This document shows, piece by piece, positions 8,961 through 20,863 of a stretch of DNA of 37,760 bases (its first letter is position 1; each line of letters begins with the position of its first letter). A program made the position numbers and the translations under genes. The stretch lies in the IMG/VR virus record IMGVR_UViG_3300017622_000002, positions 1 to 37,760 of that record. One strand, 5' to 3'. This DNA comes from a virus. Below the pieces are notes generated by a model. The model was not told where the DNA came from, did not search any database, and saw only the letters and a list, made by a program, of their open reading frames with translations.

Positions 8961-9249
8961 TGATCCTCCGTTGCGTGGCTTCCGCCTTGATTTGCATGTT
9001 CTCGGTCAGCAGCAGCTCCGACTGCATGATCTGAGCGCCGCCGACGAGGGAAGTGAAAACTGCTTCGAACTGGTTTGCGGCCCACAGCAGGCGCTTCAGC
9101 TCCTCGGCCTGGACCTTGTTCTCGACCGGCAGCGCGGCCCAGGCGTCGATGACGGCTTGCCGGGTCTCGCGCATCGCTTCCTTGAAGAGCGGGTCGTCCA
9201 GCAGGCGCTTTGCGTGCTCGCCGCGCGCGATCTGTTGTTCAGGTGTCAT
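8950..9249 (-). CDS. Hypothetical helical protein downstream of portal
   Basis: 99 aa, MTPEQQIARGEHAKRLLDDP..., almost fully alpha-helical by composition, without membrane segments. The start overlaps the portal stop by 4 nt (ATGA), so it is coupled to portal translation. Segments DPLFKEAMRETRQAVIDAWA and ENKVQAEELKRLLWAANQFE recall a widespread small helical phage protein found between portal and scaffold genes. Function is unknown. Confidence 0.7.
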   Translation of the reverse strand: MTPEQQIARGEHAKRLLDDPLFKEAMRETRQAVIDAWAALPVENKVQAEELKRLLWAANQFEAVFTSLVGGAQIMQSELLLTENMQIKAEATQRRINGT

Positions 9250-11354
9250 CCTTGCGGACCTCCGTGAAATTGGTCAGCCGCGGCCTCGCCGAGCTGCTGC
9301 GCATGCGCCAGGTCACCCTGGTCATCGCGGCGCATCTTGTGGTCGAGCTCGATCTGCTTGAGGCCAAGCTCGATTTCCTTGGCGCGCACCTTCTTGTCCT
9401 CGATCTGCAGGTCCAGCAGCTTGAGCTGCGTCTCCGCGTCGAGCTTCTCCTGCGCCATCGCGCGCTGGTGCGCCATCTCCTCGCGCTTCGTTTCCTGCTT
9501 GATGCGCTCGGATTCGACCTGCGCCTCGGCGAGGATTTGCTCGGGCGACGGCTGCGGCGGCGCCTGCTCCTGCGTGCTCGGGTCGGTCAGTAGGCGAGTC
9601 TCACCGCCCTGGATATTGCCAGCCTTGAGCAGCATCTTGCCCAAGTTGTAGACGTTCTCCGGCGTGACGACGCCCAACGGCGCGGCCTGCTGGAAGTAGG
9701 CGCCCATCATCGACAGGAACTGGATCGTCTGCGACTTGTCGCCGCTGCCCAGGCCCACGTTGATATTCACGTCCATTTCCGCCGACCAGCCGCGCGGGTC
9801 ATACTCGACCCAGGTATTGCGCAGGCGGATCGTCGCCGGCTTGTCCTGGTATTCGCAGGTCAGGCGCAGCAGGCGCTTGCACAAGTCCTTGCAGCCGGTC
9901 TCGGCGAACACGCGCAGCATCATCAGCGCTCGCTTCTGGTCGCGAGTGTTGGCGATCTGCGCACCGGTGGCGGTCTTGTTCAGGCTGTCGGCGTCGAGGC
10001 CCTGGTTCAGGCGGTTGATGCCGATGCGCTCCTCGCGCATGTTGTTGGCCAGCTCGATACCCTGGAGGGATTCGTTGGCGACCAGCGAGGTTTGCATCGG
10101 GCCGGCGGCCTGGGGAGCCTTGACGCGCACCACCTTGCCGATGCGGGTGCTCAGCAGGTCGTCGAGGTTCACCTGGCCCTCGACCGCATACGTGGCTGGG
10201 TTGTTCGCCAGGTACAGCGAGTCCAGGTACTGGCGGGTCAGCGCGGTCTTGGTGTCCTGGATCGAGATCACAGGGTCGGCCAGGGCCATGCCGATGATCC
10301 GGTGCGGCAGCAGGATCGGGGACCAGATGCTGTATTCGTGATCGTCGACCTCCTCGTTTTCGAGAATGTCGTTGCCGGCCATGAAGACGCGGCGCCATTC
10401 GGCGATCCCGTCGCCGTCGTAGTCGACGCGGATGAAGCCGAAGAACAGCGTAAGCTGCTGCAGCGCGCCTTCGCCGGTGTCGGGCAGGCCCAGGCCATCC
10501 TGGTCAAGCGCGAAGTCGTCGTGCGCAGCCTGGTAGTCGGACAGGCGCTCGACGCGCGCGCGGTCGAAGCCCATGCCGACCAGGTCGGAGCGCGTGTACT
10601 GGCGTAGCTCGCCGATGGCGGTCACGTCTTCCATCTTCTTGGCGTGGCGCGACAGGATGAACGACGACGGCTCGATGTTCTCGATGCGCACACCGCGCGG
10701 GCCGCTGTCGATGATGAGCTCGATGTCGTGCAGCATCTGCGGCGGCTCGGCCATCAGGGCAGCCACCTGTTGCTGCTGCTCGGGCGGCAGGCTGGCCATC
10801 TGCTCCTTGGCCTGCGCGCGCTTCGCCTCGTCGTCCGGGTCCGGCGCCGCGTCGTGGCTCACGATGGTCACGCGCGGGTCGTTGACGAACTTGACCAGCT
10901 GCATATCGGTCAGGCCACGGTAGCGCGCCTTCTTCGTCTTGCTGGTCGCGTCCCACCACGAGCGCACGATGCCGATCTTCGACAGAAAGCCGTCCTTGAT
11001 CCAGGCGCTGAAGATCAGGAAGCCCGGGTTCTTCTTCTTGATCAGGTGGTTCACGACGTCGGTCACCTGCTCCGAATACGCTTCGTCGCCCGGCTCGGCC
11101 GGCTCAAACTCGCAGATATCGTCACCTGCGAAGAACGGCTCGAGCAGATCGGGCAGGGCGCTCTCGACCACTTCGAACACGTCCCAGCTCACGACCTGGC
11201 TGCGCCCCGCAACCTCGTTGCCCATCGGCAGGCCGTGGTAGTAGGCGAGGTTCTTCTCGCGCTCGCTGGCCAGCGTGGAAGCCGTCCAGGCGGCGGATTC
11301 GCTCACCTCGCGGTCGACCGCGCTGCGCAGCTCGTCGTCGGTCATTTTGGTCAT
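9246..11354 (-). CDS. Portal protein
   Basis: 702 aa, starting MTKMTDDELRSAVDREVSES. The N-terminal part (REKNLAYYHGLPMGNEVAGR, then SQVVSWDVFEVVESALPDLL) and the middle segment (YLDSLYLANNPATYAVEGQV, MREERIGINRLNQGLD, SLNKTATGAQIANTRDQK) match the P22/SU10-type portal pattern. The end is a long charged coiled coil (residues about 590-700: QILAEAQVESERIKQETKRE) that could form the barrel projecting into the capsid. It overlaps terL by ATGA at 11351-11354. The dodecameric ring would serve as packaging motor platform. Length equals that of P22-like portals (about 700 aa). Confidence 0.9.
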   Translation of the reverse strand: MTKMTDDELRSAVDREVSESAAWTASTLASEREKNLAYYHGLPMGNEVAGRSQVVSWDVFEVVESALPDLLEPFFAGDDICEFEPAEPGDEAYSEQVTDVVNHLIKKKNPGFLIFSAWIKDGFLSKIGIVRSWWDATSKTKKARYRGLTDMQLVKFVNDPRVTIVSHDAAPDPDDEAKRAQAKEQMASLPPEQQQQVAALMAEPPQMLHDIELIIDSGPRGVRIENIEPSSFILSRHAKKMEDVTAIGELRQYTRSDLVGMGFDRARVERLSDYQAAHDDFALDQDGLGLPDTGEGALQQLTLFFGFIRVDYDGDGIAEWRRVFMAGNDILENEEVDDHEYSIWSPILLPHRIIGMALADPVISIQDTKTALTRQYLDSLYLANNPATYAVEGQVNLDDLLSTRIGKVVRVKAPQAAGPMQTSLVANESLQGIELANNMREERIGINRLNQGLDADSLNKTATGAQIANTRDQKRALMMLRVFAETGCKDLCKRLLRLTCEYQDKPATIRLRNTWVEYDPRGWSAEMDVNINVGLGSGDKSQTIQFLSMMGAYFQQAAPLGVVTPENVYNLGKMLLKAGNIQGGETRLLTDPSTQEQAPPQPSPEQILAEAQVESERIKQETKREEMAHQRAMAQEKLDAETQLKLLDLQIEDKKVRAKEIELGLKQIELDHKMRRDDQGDLAHAQQLGEAAADQFHGGPQG

Positions 11355-12601
11355 ACGATTCCCAGGTTGTTGTAGTTGAGGCTGCCGCCCCATTCCTCGT
11401 TGCGCATGTCGTCGGCGTTGATGGCCACGTAGCGCAGGTTGTCGGCGCCGTGGCTCCACTCGTCGTGCAGCGGCGCGCCAGGCTCGTTCGTCTGCTTGTT
11501 GATGGCGCGGCGGTAGCGCTTGGCGCACTGCACCAGGCGGGCGGTGCGCTCCTTGTCGAAGTACATGCGGCCGAATGCCATGCGGGTTACGCGGATGCCA
11601 TCCTCGACGCTCATGTTCGGCGTGATGCGCACGGCCCAGCCGAGTGCTTCCATGATCTCCTTGGCGCTCTTGCCGGTCTGGATGTTCTTGTGCTCGCCGT
11701 CGTGGGGCAGGTAGACGTTGCCCCAGTTGTAGCCCTTCATCTTGAGGTCGGCGCTGTAGCTGTCCAGCGTGCGGCGGTTGTCCTCGATGTACTCGATGAC
11801 ACGCAGCTCCGACGCGTGCCTCTGCACCAGGCTGATGGCCATGGCGTCGTTCCAGCCCAGGTCGAACACGACGTGGACCTTCAGCATCGGATCGTACGGC
11901 ACGTTGCAGATGCGCTTTTGCGTCTCCACGGCGGTCATCTCGTCGTAGTAGATCGCGCCGGCCACCGCGGGCTTGCAGATGCCGCCCCAAATGTTGTCGT
12001 AGTCCTTGGGCTGGTTGCGCACGCAGTCCAGGCGCTCCTGCTCCAGCTTGTCGGTGAACCAGGGGTTGTCGCAGAAATTCATCTGCACCACCACGGCGCC
12101 GGTCGGTGGATTCACCACGAACATCTGGTAGGTGACGTCGGTTTCGAGCTCAGGGTTGAACGTGATCCAGATTTCCGAGCCCGGCTTGCGGATGGTCGGG
12201 CGCAGGACGTCCCAGGACTTCTTGCTGACCGCTTGCGCTTCCTCGACCCAGCAAATGTCCACGCCCTCAAACGACTTGATCGTGGTCACGGTGTGCTGCG
12301 CCAGACCCGAATAGGCGAACGTTGTGCCGTTCTTACCCCGGATTTCATAGGCGAGCACCTCGTAAAACTCAGACAGGCCAAGCTCGGCGATCTGGTCCTT
12401 CAGCAGCGTGTGCACCGAATCCTCGATGGACTTCTGCACCTCTCGCGCGCACAGGATTCGCAGGGGCCGCTGGGCGCCCAGGATCAGCAACGCGCGGGCG
12501 AAGCCCCAGCTCTTGCCAGAGCCGCGGCCGCCGTGCACAACCTTGTAGGGCGCCGGCTCGAACAGGCATTGCAGTTTGTCGGGGAACTTAGCTGTTTCCA
12601 T
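11351..12601 (-). CDS. terL: Terminase large subunit
   Basis: 416 aa. The Walker A motif GGRGSGKS is at residues 24-31, a Walker B-like acidic strand (GVDICWVEE) near 113-121, and motif III-like SEIWITFNPE after it. The RNase-H-type nuclease half starts around VHVVFDLGWNDAMAISLV and keeps the late acidic residue in WSHGADNLRY. The layout fits Terminase_3 (PBSX/SPP1-like) enzymes: ATP-driven DNA translocation and cleavage at the portal. It overlaps terS by 14 nt and portal by 4 nt. Headful packaging is common in this group, which would agree with a circularly permuted genome (inference). Confidence 0.95.
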   Translation of the reverse strand: METAKFPDKLQCLFEPAPYKVVHGGRGSGKSWGFARALLILGAQRPLRILCAREVQKSIEDSVHTLLKDQIAELGLSEFYEVLAYEIRGKNGTTFAYSGLAQHTVTTIKSFEGVDICWVEEAQAVSKKSWDVLRPTIRKPGSEIWITFNPELETDVTYQMFVVNPPTGAVVVQMNFCDNPWFTDKLEQERLDCVRNQPKDYDNIWGGICKPAVAGAIYYDEMTAVETQKRICNVPYDPMLKVHVVFDLGWNDAMAISLVQRHASELRVIEYIEDNRRTLDSYSADLKMKGYNWGNVYLPHDGEHKNIQTGKSAKEIMEALGWAVRITPNMSVEDGIRVTRMAFGRMYFDKERTARLVQCAKRYRRAINKQTNEPGAPLHDEWSHGADNLRYVAINADDMRNEEWGGSLNYNNLGIV

Positions 12602-17113: not shown

Positions 17114-17322
17114 GCCATTTCCTTCGTGTTCTTCGCCAAAAACGCCTGCCGCTCGCCGATCTGCCCGGCCGGCGTCGGCTTGAACAGCACGGTCGGCGGG
17201 TTGTCGGCGCGGACGTAGACCTCGTAGCCGGTGCAGAAGCCGAGGCCCATGGAGGCCTGCTGCTCGTGGCCGGTGACCTGGAAGCGGGCGCACATGGCGC
17301 AGGGCTGGCGGTCGCGGCTCAT
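17110..17322 (-). CDS. Small Cys-containing hypothetical protein
   Basis: 70 aa: MSRDRQPCAMCARFQVTGHE... with a CxxC near the N-terminus and a further Cys in GFCTGYEVYV, which suggests a small metal-binding fold. Both ends overlap neighbours by ATGA (17319-17322 and 17110-17113). It sits between the DnaC-like loader and the methyltransferase. No family assignment is possible from sequence alone. Confidence 0.7.
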   Translation of the reverse strand: MSRDRQPCAMCARFQVTGHEQQASMGLGFCTGYEVYVRADNPPTVLFKPTPAGQIGERQAFLAKNTKEMA

Positions 17323-18104
17323 CGCACCACCCGCAGGCCAGGCACGGCGCCGTTGCGGCGGAAGTCGCCCCAGCTGCAGTCGCACACGAAAGCGTTTTCG
17401 TAGAGGCGGCTGTGCACGCGCTCGCCGACGAATTTCGCCAGGTTGTCGAACGGCTGGTTGCTGATGACGATGACCGGCTTGGCCTCGTTGTAGCGGCGGT
17501 TGATGATCTCGGTCAGCAGCAGGTTGGCGTTGTCCGTGCTGCGGATGGCGTCGATCTCGTCGAGGATCAGCACGTCGTACTGCGCGAACCGCATGATCTC
17601 GGCTTCCTCGCTCTTGCCCTCGCGGCCGTAGGTGGCCTGGATTTCGCTGATCATGCCGGCGGCGGTGATGTAGCGGATCGAGCGCGAGGCCTTCGCCATC
17701 AGGGATTGCGCGAGCTGGCAGGCCAGCAGCGTTTTCCCGGTGCCGGTGGTCCCGATCATCACCAGCGCGGCCCAGGCGGGTTCGCGCAGGATGAAGTCGC
17801 GGTACAGCTGCACGGTGCGCAGGACGGCGCGCTGTTCCTCGGTGCCGGCGGCGAAGCGCTGGCCGACGTACTTGGCCGGGATCGTGGCAGCGCGCATCAG
17901 GTCGGCGGTGCGGGCGGCCATCCAGCGTTCGTGCGTGTCGCGGGCCATCGTCGCCTCGAGGCAGCGCGGGCAGTGCCAGGCGGCGCCGACGCGGGTCAGG
18001 ACTTCGGCGGGGCCGTGCTGCGGGCATTCGCCGGCCAGCATCGCCAGGCGGGCGCCGAAGCCGGCCACCAGGCCGCCAACGGGTTGCAGGGTGTCGTCGG
18101 TCAT
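17319..18104 (-). CDS. DnaC/IstB-like helicase loader ATPase
   Basis: 261 aa. Residues 27-49 carry a Zn-type site (CPQHG ... WHCPRC). The AAA+ core follows: Walker A GTTGTGKT (118-125), Walker B YDVLILDEIDAI (about 170-180), a sensor-like segment PVIVISNQPFDNL and an Arg-finger-like RVHSRLYENAF. This is the DnaC-type architecture used by phages to load host DnaB helicase, analogous in role to lambda P. Its start overlaps the O-like gene's stop (ATGA). Together with the O-like protein and the iterons inside that gene it forms the replication initiation module. Confidence 0.9.
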   Translation of the reverse strand: MTDDTLQPVGGLVAGFGARLAMLAGECPQHGPAEVLTRVGAAWHCPRCLEATMARDTHERWMAARTADLMRAATIPAKYVGQRFAAGTEEQRAVLRTVQLYRDFILREPAWAALVMIGTTGTGKTLLACQLAQSLMAKASRSIRYITAAGMISEIQATYGREGKSEEAEIMRFAQYDVLILDEIDAIRSTDNANLLLTEIINRRYNEAKPVIVISNQPFDNLAKFVGERVHSRLYENAFVCDCSWGDFRRNGAVPGLRVVR

Positions 18105-19000
18105 ATCTCGATGTCCTCGTCAGGGCCAGGCACGGTGATGCCGTGGCGTTGCATGCTGGCTTCCATCGCGGCCCGGTCGCCGGAGCGGTCCAGGTGCGAG
18201 AAGTTGAACTTTTCGTTGACGGCGGCAGGGCGGGGTGCGGCGCGGCGCTCGGTCGGCGGTACTGCGCGGCCGGCGTCGATCTTCGAAGCGTCGGCAGCCC
18301 AGCGGGTCAGGATCGCGGCCACGTAGCCCAGGCCGATGCTCTCGCCCGGCTTCGCGGCCTTGGCCTCGATGCACGCCGCCTCGACGGTCTGCACGGTCAC
18401 GCCTTGGTCGGCCAGAGCGATCAGGCGAGGGTCTGCAGGTTGCGTTTTGATGCCAGCAGCGTTGAAGGCGATGCTCAGCTGAACGGCGGTCGGCAGGTCA
18501 GCGCGCGCGCCGTGCCCGTCCACGCCCAACTCCGGTTGAGTAGCTGCGCTGTGTATCGAAGTAGGGGTTTGTTCTTCTCTTCTCTTATCTTCTCTAGGTA
18601 ACGCACCGGTAACGGCGTCATCCGATTTTGGTAACGCTGACTGCGTTACCTTTGCGTTACCTTTGTGATTAGCAACACGCTTTGCGGTCTGCGCGCGCTG
18701 CTTGGCCGAGGCGCCGTTGTGCTCGTCGAAGCGGGAGACGGTAACGCTGTCACCGTTATCGCTGAGCCAGCCGACCGTTACCAAGGCGTTACCGAGGCCG
18801 GTAATGCCAGTCTTGCGGTCGATTGCGCGGAGGGTCATGCCGTGCAGCAGGCCGTCGGACGAGTGTTCGTCGGCGGTAGCCCACAGCCAGTACAGGCCGC
18901 CAATGACGGCGGCTTCGTGTTGGTCGGTGAGGTCGCACAGCTGCGAGACGCGCGGATCGTCCCACAGGTTGGTGCGCATTTTGATCCATTCGCCTGCCAC
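18101..19000 (-). CDS. O-like replication initiator carrying the origin
   Basis: 299 aa. The N-terminus (MAGEWIKMRTNLWDDPRVSQ, EAAVIGGLYWLWATADEHSS, KTGITGLGNALVTVGWLSDN) resembles the winged-helix N-domain of phage O / DnaT-type initiators. The middle (residues about 95-160) is polar and low in complexity; it is where the DNA iterons are. The C-terminal part (SIAFNAAGIKTQPADPRLIA, GLGYVAAILTRWAAD) is the helical partner-binding domain, and the tail is charged. It is followed by the DnaC-like gene with an ATGA overlap, the lambda O-P order. The origin is inside the gene, as in lambda. Confidence 0.78.
   Translation of the reverse strand: MAGEWIKMRTNLWDDPRVSQLCDLTDQHEAAVIGGLYWLWATADEHSSDGLLHGMTLRAIDRKTGITGLGNALVTVGWLSDNGDSVTVSRFDEHNGASAKQRAQTAKRVANHKGNAKVTQSALPKSDDAVTGALPREDKRREEQTPTSIHSAATQPELGVDGHGARADLPTAVQLSIAFNAAGIKTQPADPRLIALADQGVTVQTVEAACIEAKAAKPGESIGLGYVAAILTRWAADASKIDAGRAVPPTERRAAPRPAAVNEKFNFSHLDRSGDRAAMEASMQRHGITVPGPDEDIEI
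18560..18806. other. Candidate replication origin with GGTAACG iterons
   Basis: Eight exact copies of GGTAACG or its complement CGTTACC occur in 197 bp: direct at 18597, 18608, 18630 and 18740; inverted at 18644, 18655, 18776 and 18787. Near copies lie at 18754 (CGTTATC) and 18800 (GGTAATG). Several pairs are spaced 11 bp apart, about one helical turn. The copies fall in different codon phases (Gly-Asn, Val-Thr, Leu-Pro), so protein coding does not explain them. A pyrimidine-rich tract (about 18567-18595) adjoins the cluster and may be the melting site. Confidence 0.8.
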
Positions 19001-19863: not shown

Positions 19864-20067
19864 TCAGGATGGAGGCTCCGTGGCCACGTGGTGTTCGGTC
19901 GCCAGTCGCTCCAAGCCGCTGATGACCTGGTAGGAGGGACGCTTTGTCCCGGCTTTGCCGGAGGCCATCTCGCTCACGGTCGGCTGCTTCAGGCCGATAG
20001 CGTTCGCAATCTGGGTCTGTGTGAGTCCAGCTCGCTGGAGCTCGGAAAGGATGAAAGGAATGTTCAT
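19864..20067 (-). CDS. cro: Cro-like repressor
   Basis: 67 aa starting MNIPFILSELQRAGLTQTQI. Residues 1-55 form a helix-turn-helix of the XRE/Cro class (LTQTQIANAIGLKQPTVSEM is helices 2-3). It diverges from cI, with the promoter at 20075-20103 between them. The -10 hexamer ends only 7 nt before the start codon and there is no ribosome site, so the mRNA is probably leaderless. Expected role: shut off cI and early promoters during lytic growth. Start at 20067 is preferred over the in-frame ATG at 20208, which lies beyond the promoter. Confidence 0.85.
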   Translation of the reverse strand: MNIPFILSELQRAGLTQTQIANAIGLKQPTVSEMASGKAGTKRPSYQVISGLERLATEHHVATEPPS

Positions 20068-20074
20068 GACCGAC

Positions 20075-20103
20075 AGTATAGGAACTCCGATTTTATCTGT
20101 CAA
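20075..20103 (-). promoter_or_regulatory. Early leftward promoter (cro promoter)
   Basis: On the minus strand TTGACA (complement of 20098-20103), 17-nt spacer, TATACT (complement of 20075-20080). Operators lie on the -35 flank (20103-20116) and on the spacer/-10 (20078-20091). Near-consensus, so active when CI is absent. Confidence 0.88.
20078..20091. promoter_or_regulatory. Repressor operator copy 1 (cro promoter, -10 side)
   Basis: ATAGGAACTCCGAT, 9 of 10 fixed positions of the consensus ATCGG(N4)CCGAT. It covers the spacer and -10 of the cro promoter. Confidence 0.75.
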
Positions 20104-20116
20104 TCGGTATTCCGAT
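20103..20116. promoter_or_regulatory. Repressor operator copy 2 (cro promoter, -35 side)
   Basis: ATCGGTATTCCGAT, a perfect ATCGG/CCGAT palindrome touching the -35 of the cro promoter. It sits 25 bp from copy 1 and 32 bp from copy 3. Confidence 0.82.
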
Positions 20117-20134
20117 CTAGTGCCGCAGGATAAT

Positions 20135-20148
20135 ATCGGTATGTCGAT
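20135..20148. promoter_or_regulatory. Repressor operator copy 3 (over the cI start)
   Basis: ATCGGTATGTCGAT, one mismatch to the fixed consensus. The cI ATG (20141) is inside it, so binding would block cI transcription start or early elongation: autoregulation. Confidence 0.72.
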
Positions 20149-20863
20149 AGGATCAAGAATCAGAGAAGCGCGTCGTGCTGCGAAGATGACGCAAAAGGAA
20201 CTCGCCAAGAAGGTCGGGCTGGCTCAGGCATCGCTGTCCGAGCTAGAGACCGGTGAGTCGCAAGGAACAACCATGATCGCGTCGTTCGCGGCAGCCCTAG
20301 GGGTAAGTGCCTTGTGGCTCGAAACGGGGAAGGGAGCGACGGCTCCAGAGTTGCATGTGGTTTCAGCACCTGACTCGCCGTTTGTCGAGCAGCCCAGCCA
20401 GCTGGCGGACGCTCGGCCGGTCCTGGCTGGCGAGCGCAGCGATACTGTGGAAATTCCACGTGTGAAACTGCGCCTACGCGCCGGAGTAGCGAACTACGAT
20501 ACCGAGCCGGACATGAATGGCGATGGCCATGAGGTAGTGCCGCGCGAGCTGCTTACCACACTAGGGTTAAAGGCCGCGAATCTGTTCGCTGTTCGGGTTC
20601 GCGGCACGAGTATGGAACCGATGCTGTTTGAGGACGACGTAGTAATTATTGATAAGTCCGACACGAAGCCAATTAGCCGTGAGGTGTATGCGGTTAATTT
20701 CGACGGCGACGCTTGCGTAAAGCAACTGCTCTATAAAGGCGGGCAATGGTATTTGCATTCGCTTAATTCAGACCATAAGCCTGTAAATGTAAAAAGCGGA
20801 CAATGCAGTATCGTGGGGCGCGTGGTTATTCAGCCGACACGGGTTTTGACCGGAAGGCTTTGA
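20141..20863 (+). CDS. cI: CI-like prophage repressor (S24/LexA-type, self-cleaving)
   Basis: 240 aa. Residues 1-60 are an XRE helix-turn-helix (MTQKELAKKVGLAQASLSEL). The C-terminal domain is an S24 peptidase: cleavage site Ala114-Gly115 (RLRAGVANY), catalytic Ser157 (VRGTSMEPML) and Lys194 (DACVKQLLY). RecA-stimulated self-cleavage is expected to trigger induction. The start at 20141 was chosen because the -10-like GATAAT (20129-20134) is 6 nt upstream and an operator overlaps the ATG; the longer in-frame start at 19955 would run through the cro gene and both operators. A weak AGGA lies 10 nt before the ATG, so a leader is not excluded. Confidence 0.93.
   Translation: MSIGSRIREARRAAKMTQKELAKKVGLAQASLSELETGESQGTTMIASFAAALGVSALWLETGKGATAPELHVVSAPDSPFVEQPSQLADARPVLAGERSDTVEIPRVKLRLRAGVANYDTEPDMNGDGHEVVPRELLTTLGLKAANLFAVRVRGTSMEPMLFEDDVVIIDKSDTKPISREVYAVNFDGDACVKQLLYKGGQWYLHSLNSDHKPVNVKSGQCSIVGRVVIQPTRVLTGRL

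Follow-up and report, generated by a model that had tools for sequence, protein, structure and literature searches.

The gene annotated as a replication initiator on a 37,760-base virus contig (IMG/VR record IMGVR_UViG_3300017622_000002, analysed over its full length and referred to here as the window) carries within its coding sequence a dense cluster of the heptamer GGTAACG, which raises the question of what these repeats are for and what reads them. The comparisons described here indicate that they are very probably iterons, the initiator-binding sites of a phage replication origin that lies inside its own initiator gene.

Repeats, tract and neighbouring genes in the window

GGTAACG occurs 13 times when counted over the 37,760-base virus contig alone, compared with a mean of 2.5 and a maximum of 8 copies in dinucleotide shuffles, and eight of these 13 copies fall within 197 bp (18597–18793), four on each strand, inside the minus-strand initiator gene (Table 1). 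A sequence-only reading of this DNA had described eight exact copies accompanied by two near-copies; both near-copies are present, each with one mismatch, and the record-wide count confirms that the heptamer is not equally frequent elsewhere. The same reading held that selection acts here on the DNA and not on the protein, and this is upheld by several observations. The copies fall in three reading frames, where they are translated as Gly-Asn-Ala, Val-Thr and Ala-Leu-Pro. Among 5000 synonymous-codon shuffles that kept the protein and codon usage fixed GGTAACG never exceeded 4 copies, and among 1000 such shuffles no 7-mer whatever reached 8 (largest 7). At conserved residues in 13 close relatives codon identity is 216/260 inside the iterons versus 713/1102 elsewhere (Fisher p 4e-9, relatedness being ignored).

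The iterons lie in the hinge between the two domains of the initiator, and the hinge contains a dyad with 19-bp spacing at 18631–18649. The group at 18740–18793 is a partial repeat of that at 18597–18661, displaced by exactly 132 nt, both clusters sharing an F-F-R arrangement (CDS positions 207/218/254 and 339/350/386), and much of the upstream cluster is preserved in close relatives. Adjoining the iterons is a tract that is pyrimidine-rich on the plus strand, as had been noted earlier, and the 15-nt core of this tract is one of just two minus-strand purine runs of at least 12 nt in the record.

The initiator protein matches the phrog_2509 profile ‘replication initiation protein’ (E 2e-45, residues 1–152) across its N-terminal domain and hinge, a profile also matched by the epsilon15 protein, YdaU and the proteins of loci L253 and L272. 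Pfam scans gave no match for the window initiator, and a PDB sequence search with it returned nothing useful. The AlphaFold2 model of the N-domain (mean pLDDT 83, order H-H-E-H-H-E-E) predicts a winged helix, for which Foldseek found weak matches to winged-helix regulators (FixK2, CRP and MarR), none below E 0.06; the helix that follows, residues 91–114, is modelled with moderate confidence (pLDDT about 57–67). After the initiator the gene order is DnaC-like loader, C5 methyltransferase and NinG. A repressor with HTH and S24-peptidase domains (19955–20863, plus strand) is divergent from the replication genes, which suggests a temperate phage, and a SU10-type portal protein (PF23899, E 6e-181) is encoded at 9246–11990 on the minus strand.

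Table 1. Positions of the initiator gene, its predicted parts and the repeats in the window
Feature	Position	Strand	Remarks
Replication initiator gene with putative origin inside	18101..19000	-	299 aa, GTG start
Predicted winged-helix N-terminal domain (residues about 5–90)	18731..18988	-	AlphaFold2
Proposed recognition helix (residues 91–114), after the wing	18659..18730	-	AlphaFold2; starts at ‘FDEHNGASAK’
Thr105 codon (H+11)	18686..18688	-	T/A/G/S/V goes with A at base 4; D/E with C; K/R with G
Val109 codon (H+15), outside iterons	18674..18676	-	V goes with A at base 3; K with C; M with T
19-bp core palindrome GTAACGC-N5-GCGTTAC	18631..18649	.	Kept across iteron classes
Purine-rich coding-strand tract, proposed DNA-unwinding element	18570..18596	-	AGAGAAGATAAGAGAAGAGAAGAACAA; GAGAA-type pentamers, read REDKRREEQ
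Iteron GGTAACG	18597..18603	+	Exact copy
Iteron GGTAACG	18608..18614	+	Exact copy
Iteron GGTAACG, one palindrome arm	18630..18636	+	Exact copy
Iteron GGTAACG, other palindrome arm	18644..18650	-	Exact copy
Iteron GGTAACG	18655..18661	-	Exact copy, 11 bp from the copy at 18644..18650
Iteron, upstream cluster	18740..18746	+	Exact copy
Iteron near-copy	18754..18760	-	One mismatch (GATAACG on minus, CGTTATC on plus)
Iteron, upstream cluster	18776..18782	-	Exact copy
Iteron, upstream cluster	18787..18793	-	Exact copy
Iteron near-copy	18800..18806	+	One mismatch (GGTAATG on plus)
DnaC-like helicase loader, directly downstream of initiator gene	17319..18104	-	phrog_50 E 1e-44, Pfam IstB_IS21/AAA

A fixed geometry with class-variable words

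Relatives gathered from viral and genome contigs comprise 222 loci, 190 of them distinct, and the geometry of the repeats was tested on 84 representatives sharing less than 80% identity. An inverted pair of 6-mers at 13-nt start spacing is present in 61 of the 84 (4.6 in codon shuffles, maximum 10) and a direct pair at 11 nt in 60 (5.5, maximum 12), while the DNA of the C-terminal part of the same representatives has no comparable spacing peak. The family layout is a 19-bp palindrome (7+5+7), of which GTAACGC-N5-GCGTTAC and GTCCGCA-N5-TGCGGAC are examples, accompanied by further half-sites at 11-bp spacing, and the repeat words vary by lineage (GTAACGC, GTCCGCA, GTTCGCA, GTCACG, GTAGAC, GTCATC and GTGGCG). 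The two-orientation layout and the 7-bp word, both of which had seemed unfamiliar when the window was read by itself, can now be placed: the layout is the dyad found family-wide and GGTAACG is one of several class words. Close relatives such as a Massilia prophage (L208, N-domain 83% identical) keep most of the array, and distant relatives without GGTAACG carry different repeats at the equivalent place. By a strict caller, which presumes GT-initial 6-mers, exact copies number fewer than 3 in about one third of the representatives, and a few are without any motif; the test of inverted and direct pairs is free of that assumption. A phrog_2509 profile search over 369 genomes gave 4 matches, and a scan of viral contigs with the bare 18-base tandem pattern gave at least 119 scattered stretches that were left out of the results.

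The tract and the second cluster also have counterparts among the relatives. Downstream of the iterons, the hinge region of 61 of 84 relatives contains an uninterrupted stretch of 15 or more purines, compared with 0 of 84 for N-domain DNA, and tandem GAGAA is found near the iterons in 57 of 84; the recurrent ‘REEKRREE’ peptide of these proteins is thus due to the purine/GAGAA tract. In the hinge of Xanthomonas phage SAC (L365) the tract is a 6-nt repeat, GAACAA (read EQEQEQ), which replaces the 5-nt GAGAA repeat. Of the 28 GTCCGC-class representatives, 18 carry another palindrome within the DNA that encodes the winged helix, farther upstream; in epsilon15 it is 279 nt upstream. A two-site architecture thus recurs among relatives with differing placement, and looping between the two clusters may be guessed at. 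In locus L363, of the GTCCGC class, the second palindrome occupies CDS 54–105, 279 nt upstream of the hinge cluster.

Correspondence between the helix and the repeat word

With the H of the conserved ‘EHNG’ numbered 0, residues of the proposed recognition helix vary with the repeat class. Position H+15 is V in 37 of 38 GTAACGC representatives (A in the remaining one) and K in all 28 GTCCGC representatives, and H+11 is T in 36 of the former and D or E in all of the latter; in the window neither codon is part of an iteron. Bases 4–5 pair with H+11, where T, A or G goes with AC, D or E with CG and K with G. In a second sample, consisting of distant YdaU-like proteins (L453–L532), V15 is again associated with GTAACG and new combinations are found: K15 with A/G11 gives GTCAC, M15 with A11 gives GTTAC, M15 with K/R11 gives GTGGC and Q15 with K11 gives GTAGAC. 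The rule derived from these two samples was tested on a third, of 34 helices not used before, its function being coded after the sample had been fetched and before the repeats in it were inspected. In this third sample, which includes some near relatives of earlier loci, all 24 callable repeats were predicted correctly and none wrongly, a further 6 having too few copies to call and 4 falling outside the rule; with permuted labels a mean of 7 and a maximum of 15 were correct. Across 151 distinct helix/repeat combinations, mutual information is highest at H+7, H+11, H+15 and H+18, base 3 being matched best by H+15 and bases 4–5 by H+11, and there is little signal at H+8, H+9, H+12 and H+14 of the same linked stretch. 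The spacing of the four peaks fits a single helix face, and the pairings of acid with C, lysine with C or G and valine with A/T are chemically plausible. Among related phages the repeat word shifts in step with two or three helix residues, closely enough to be predicted from the protein.

Helix and iterons are neighbours, and part of the covariation could come from this physical linkage. That descent and linkage account for the whole of it, with a helix that does not read DNA, we consider unlikely. Room for such an account is left by the N-domain tree, which has seven class-switch pairs in its best version and only one on well-supported branches and is so poorly resolved that the number of independent class switches is not firm. 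However, shared history does not readily explain a signal that is strongest at four helix positions and weak at those between them, nor a mapping of helix positions that is base-specific. The GTTAC repeats found with M15 and A11 (L465 and L643) are those expected from combining the two residues, and V15 accompanies GTAACG from Rac YdaU to the window initiator despite an identity of about 34%.

A helix that reads the repeats is also favoured by exchanges between closely related genes. L058 (GTTCGC) and L043 (GTCATC) encode winged-helix domains that are 97% identical, yet helix and iterons differ: DNA identity is 82–90% as far as the beginning of the helix and falls to about 43% across the helix and the first iterons, beyond which the AT/purine-rich tract is nearly unchanged and identity further downstream is 90%. 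Likewise L359 and L306, which are 86% identical, belong to the GTCCGC and GTAACG classes respectively. Specificity thus seems to reside in the helix-plus-iteron stretch and not in the winged helix, and as helix and half-sites lie within about 115 bp it can be altered or swapped as a single cassette. We think it likely that origin specificity in a large phage initiator family is written twice within these 115 bp, in the recognition helix and in the DNA sites downstream of it, that a simple code leads from two to four helix positions to bases 3–6, and that the whole is passed as a cassette between near-identical initiators, which would explain their puzzling hinge peptides. The C-terminal half has been exchanged too: in L012 that of the window, at 93% identity, follows an unrelated N-terminal domain; window-type C-terminal halves with unrelated N-terminal domains occur in L012, L028 and L083.

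The putative origin and known systems

Origins within initiator genes have precedents in lambda and pSK41, and what is proposed here is therefore not a new kind of system. In lambda, iterons and an AT-rich tract lie mid-gene (PMC7466680), and in both lambda and Stx-phage O (PMC7466680; L533), as in the window, the origin is in the middle of the initiator gene and the gene of a helicase-loading partner adjoins. The four 18-bp palindromic iterons of lambda O, at CDS 348–432, occupy nearly the same place as the window iterons at 339–403 and are similarly followed by a purine/A-rich tract, and lambda O is a dimer (PMC7466680), comparable with the cooperative dimer array proposed here. The window therefore has the anatomy of a lambda-type intragenic origin, with iterons in the initiator gene, a putative melting tract alongside and the loader gene adjacent. 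The arrangement differs in that lambda has four head-to-tail palindromes whereas the window has GTAACGC half-sites in a dyad and an 11-bp phased array; unlike in lambda, the repeat letters vary widely among the relatives of the window, whose loader is DnaC-like. The protein is no homologue of lambda O by sequence (BLASTP E 9; no match to Phage_rep_O, PF04492, which lambda O itself matches at E 6e-36). The label ‘O-like’ given to the gene by the sequence-only reading hence holds for an initiator with lambda-like origin anatomy and fails for the protein, a member of phrog_2509 instead, while the central proposal of that reading, an iteron-type origin inside the initiator gene, is well supported by the codon shuffles, the family-wide layout and this anatomy.

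In pSK41 the Rep boxes are central in rep, between the regions for the N-terminal DNA-binding and C-terminal domains, and origin DNA itself encodes the linker (PMC5703833). This RepA_N system resembles the window in its central in-gene origin but belongs to Gram-positive plasmids, and neither the window protein nor its N-domain relatives had a Pfam match to RepA_N (PF06970). Phage_rep_org_N (replisome organiser, PF09681) is matched weakly by 15 of 79 aligned N-domains (best E 2e-4), with no match for the window protein itself in the Pfam scan.

An array of binding sites is by itself no proof of an origin, and protein bound to these sites might instead serve the autoregulation of its own operon, as at an intragenic operator. 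GC skew, suggested earlier as a check, has no clean switch at the repeat site, which is uninformative in itself, though in keeping with such a role. Nevertheless the sites occupy the hinge, in the middle of a gene annotated as a replication initiator and with a helicase loader adjoining, and most often have a purine tract next to them; this anatomy is like that of lambda O, and we regard an operator as very unlikely. That the repeats merely follow from a repetitive hinge peptide maintained for the sake of the protein is scarcely conceivable. Within a class this peptide is indeed fairly constant (e.g. ‘SASDADKKRTREEKRREE’), but one 7-mer is read in three frames and occurs in both orientations, and protein-preserving codon shuffles, which abolish the signal in the window and across the family, rule peptide-driven repeats out.

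For a replication origin, the repeats, geometry, tract, covariation and cassette swaps are established from sequence, and binding, melting, helicase loading and origin activity are what we infer. The N-terminal part, comprising the winged helix and the basic helix of residues about 91–114, would bind GTAACGC half-sites, of which the core pair forms the 19-bp palindrome and the others are spaced 11 bp apart, in phase with the DNA helix; the bound protein would probably make up a cooperative dimer array. A helix face with residues 101, 105, 109 and 112 would contact bases 3–6 of each half-site and set the specificity. Assembly of the array may then melt the adjoining purine/pyrimidine tract, and the host helicase would be delivered by the variable C-terminal domain together with the DnaC-like loader from the adjacent gene.

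What appears to be new is the family, a repeat word that varies by class while its geometry stays fixed, the correspondence of helix residues to bases and the exchange of the cassette; no description of such a code or exchange was found in the accessible parts of the open-licence literature, an absence that says little about novelty. Should the code hold, it would provide a sequence-readable link from initiator helix to origin across many phages and prophages of a large family. Sequence alone would then suffice to locate origins and to sort phages into replication compatibility groups, and initiator and origin could shift specificity as one small cassette without a broken intermediate.

The code would then apply, among others, to epsilon15 and to Rac, for which oriJ is predicted within ydaU. 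The epsilon15 protein and Rac YdaU belong to the same family (phrog_2509) and have the same iteron geometry as the window, and no published account of either origin was found in open-licence papers. The epsilon15 replication protein gene contains eight copies of GTCCGC in two clusters, followed by GAGAA repeats, and differs from the window in this word and in a DnaT-like C-terminal domain. Rac ydaU shares its word with the window, with six copies of GTAACGC, and in L364 the array has the 19-bp geometry at CDS 148–178 and 367–408. This array is a candidate for oriJ; the accessible parts of the open papers that name oriJ give no map position. A search with Rac YdaU as query returned E. coli copies only, which were used to assess conservation and not diversity, and in 80 of these Rac copies the sites at 160, 173, 367, 380 and 403 are almost always kept.
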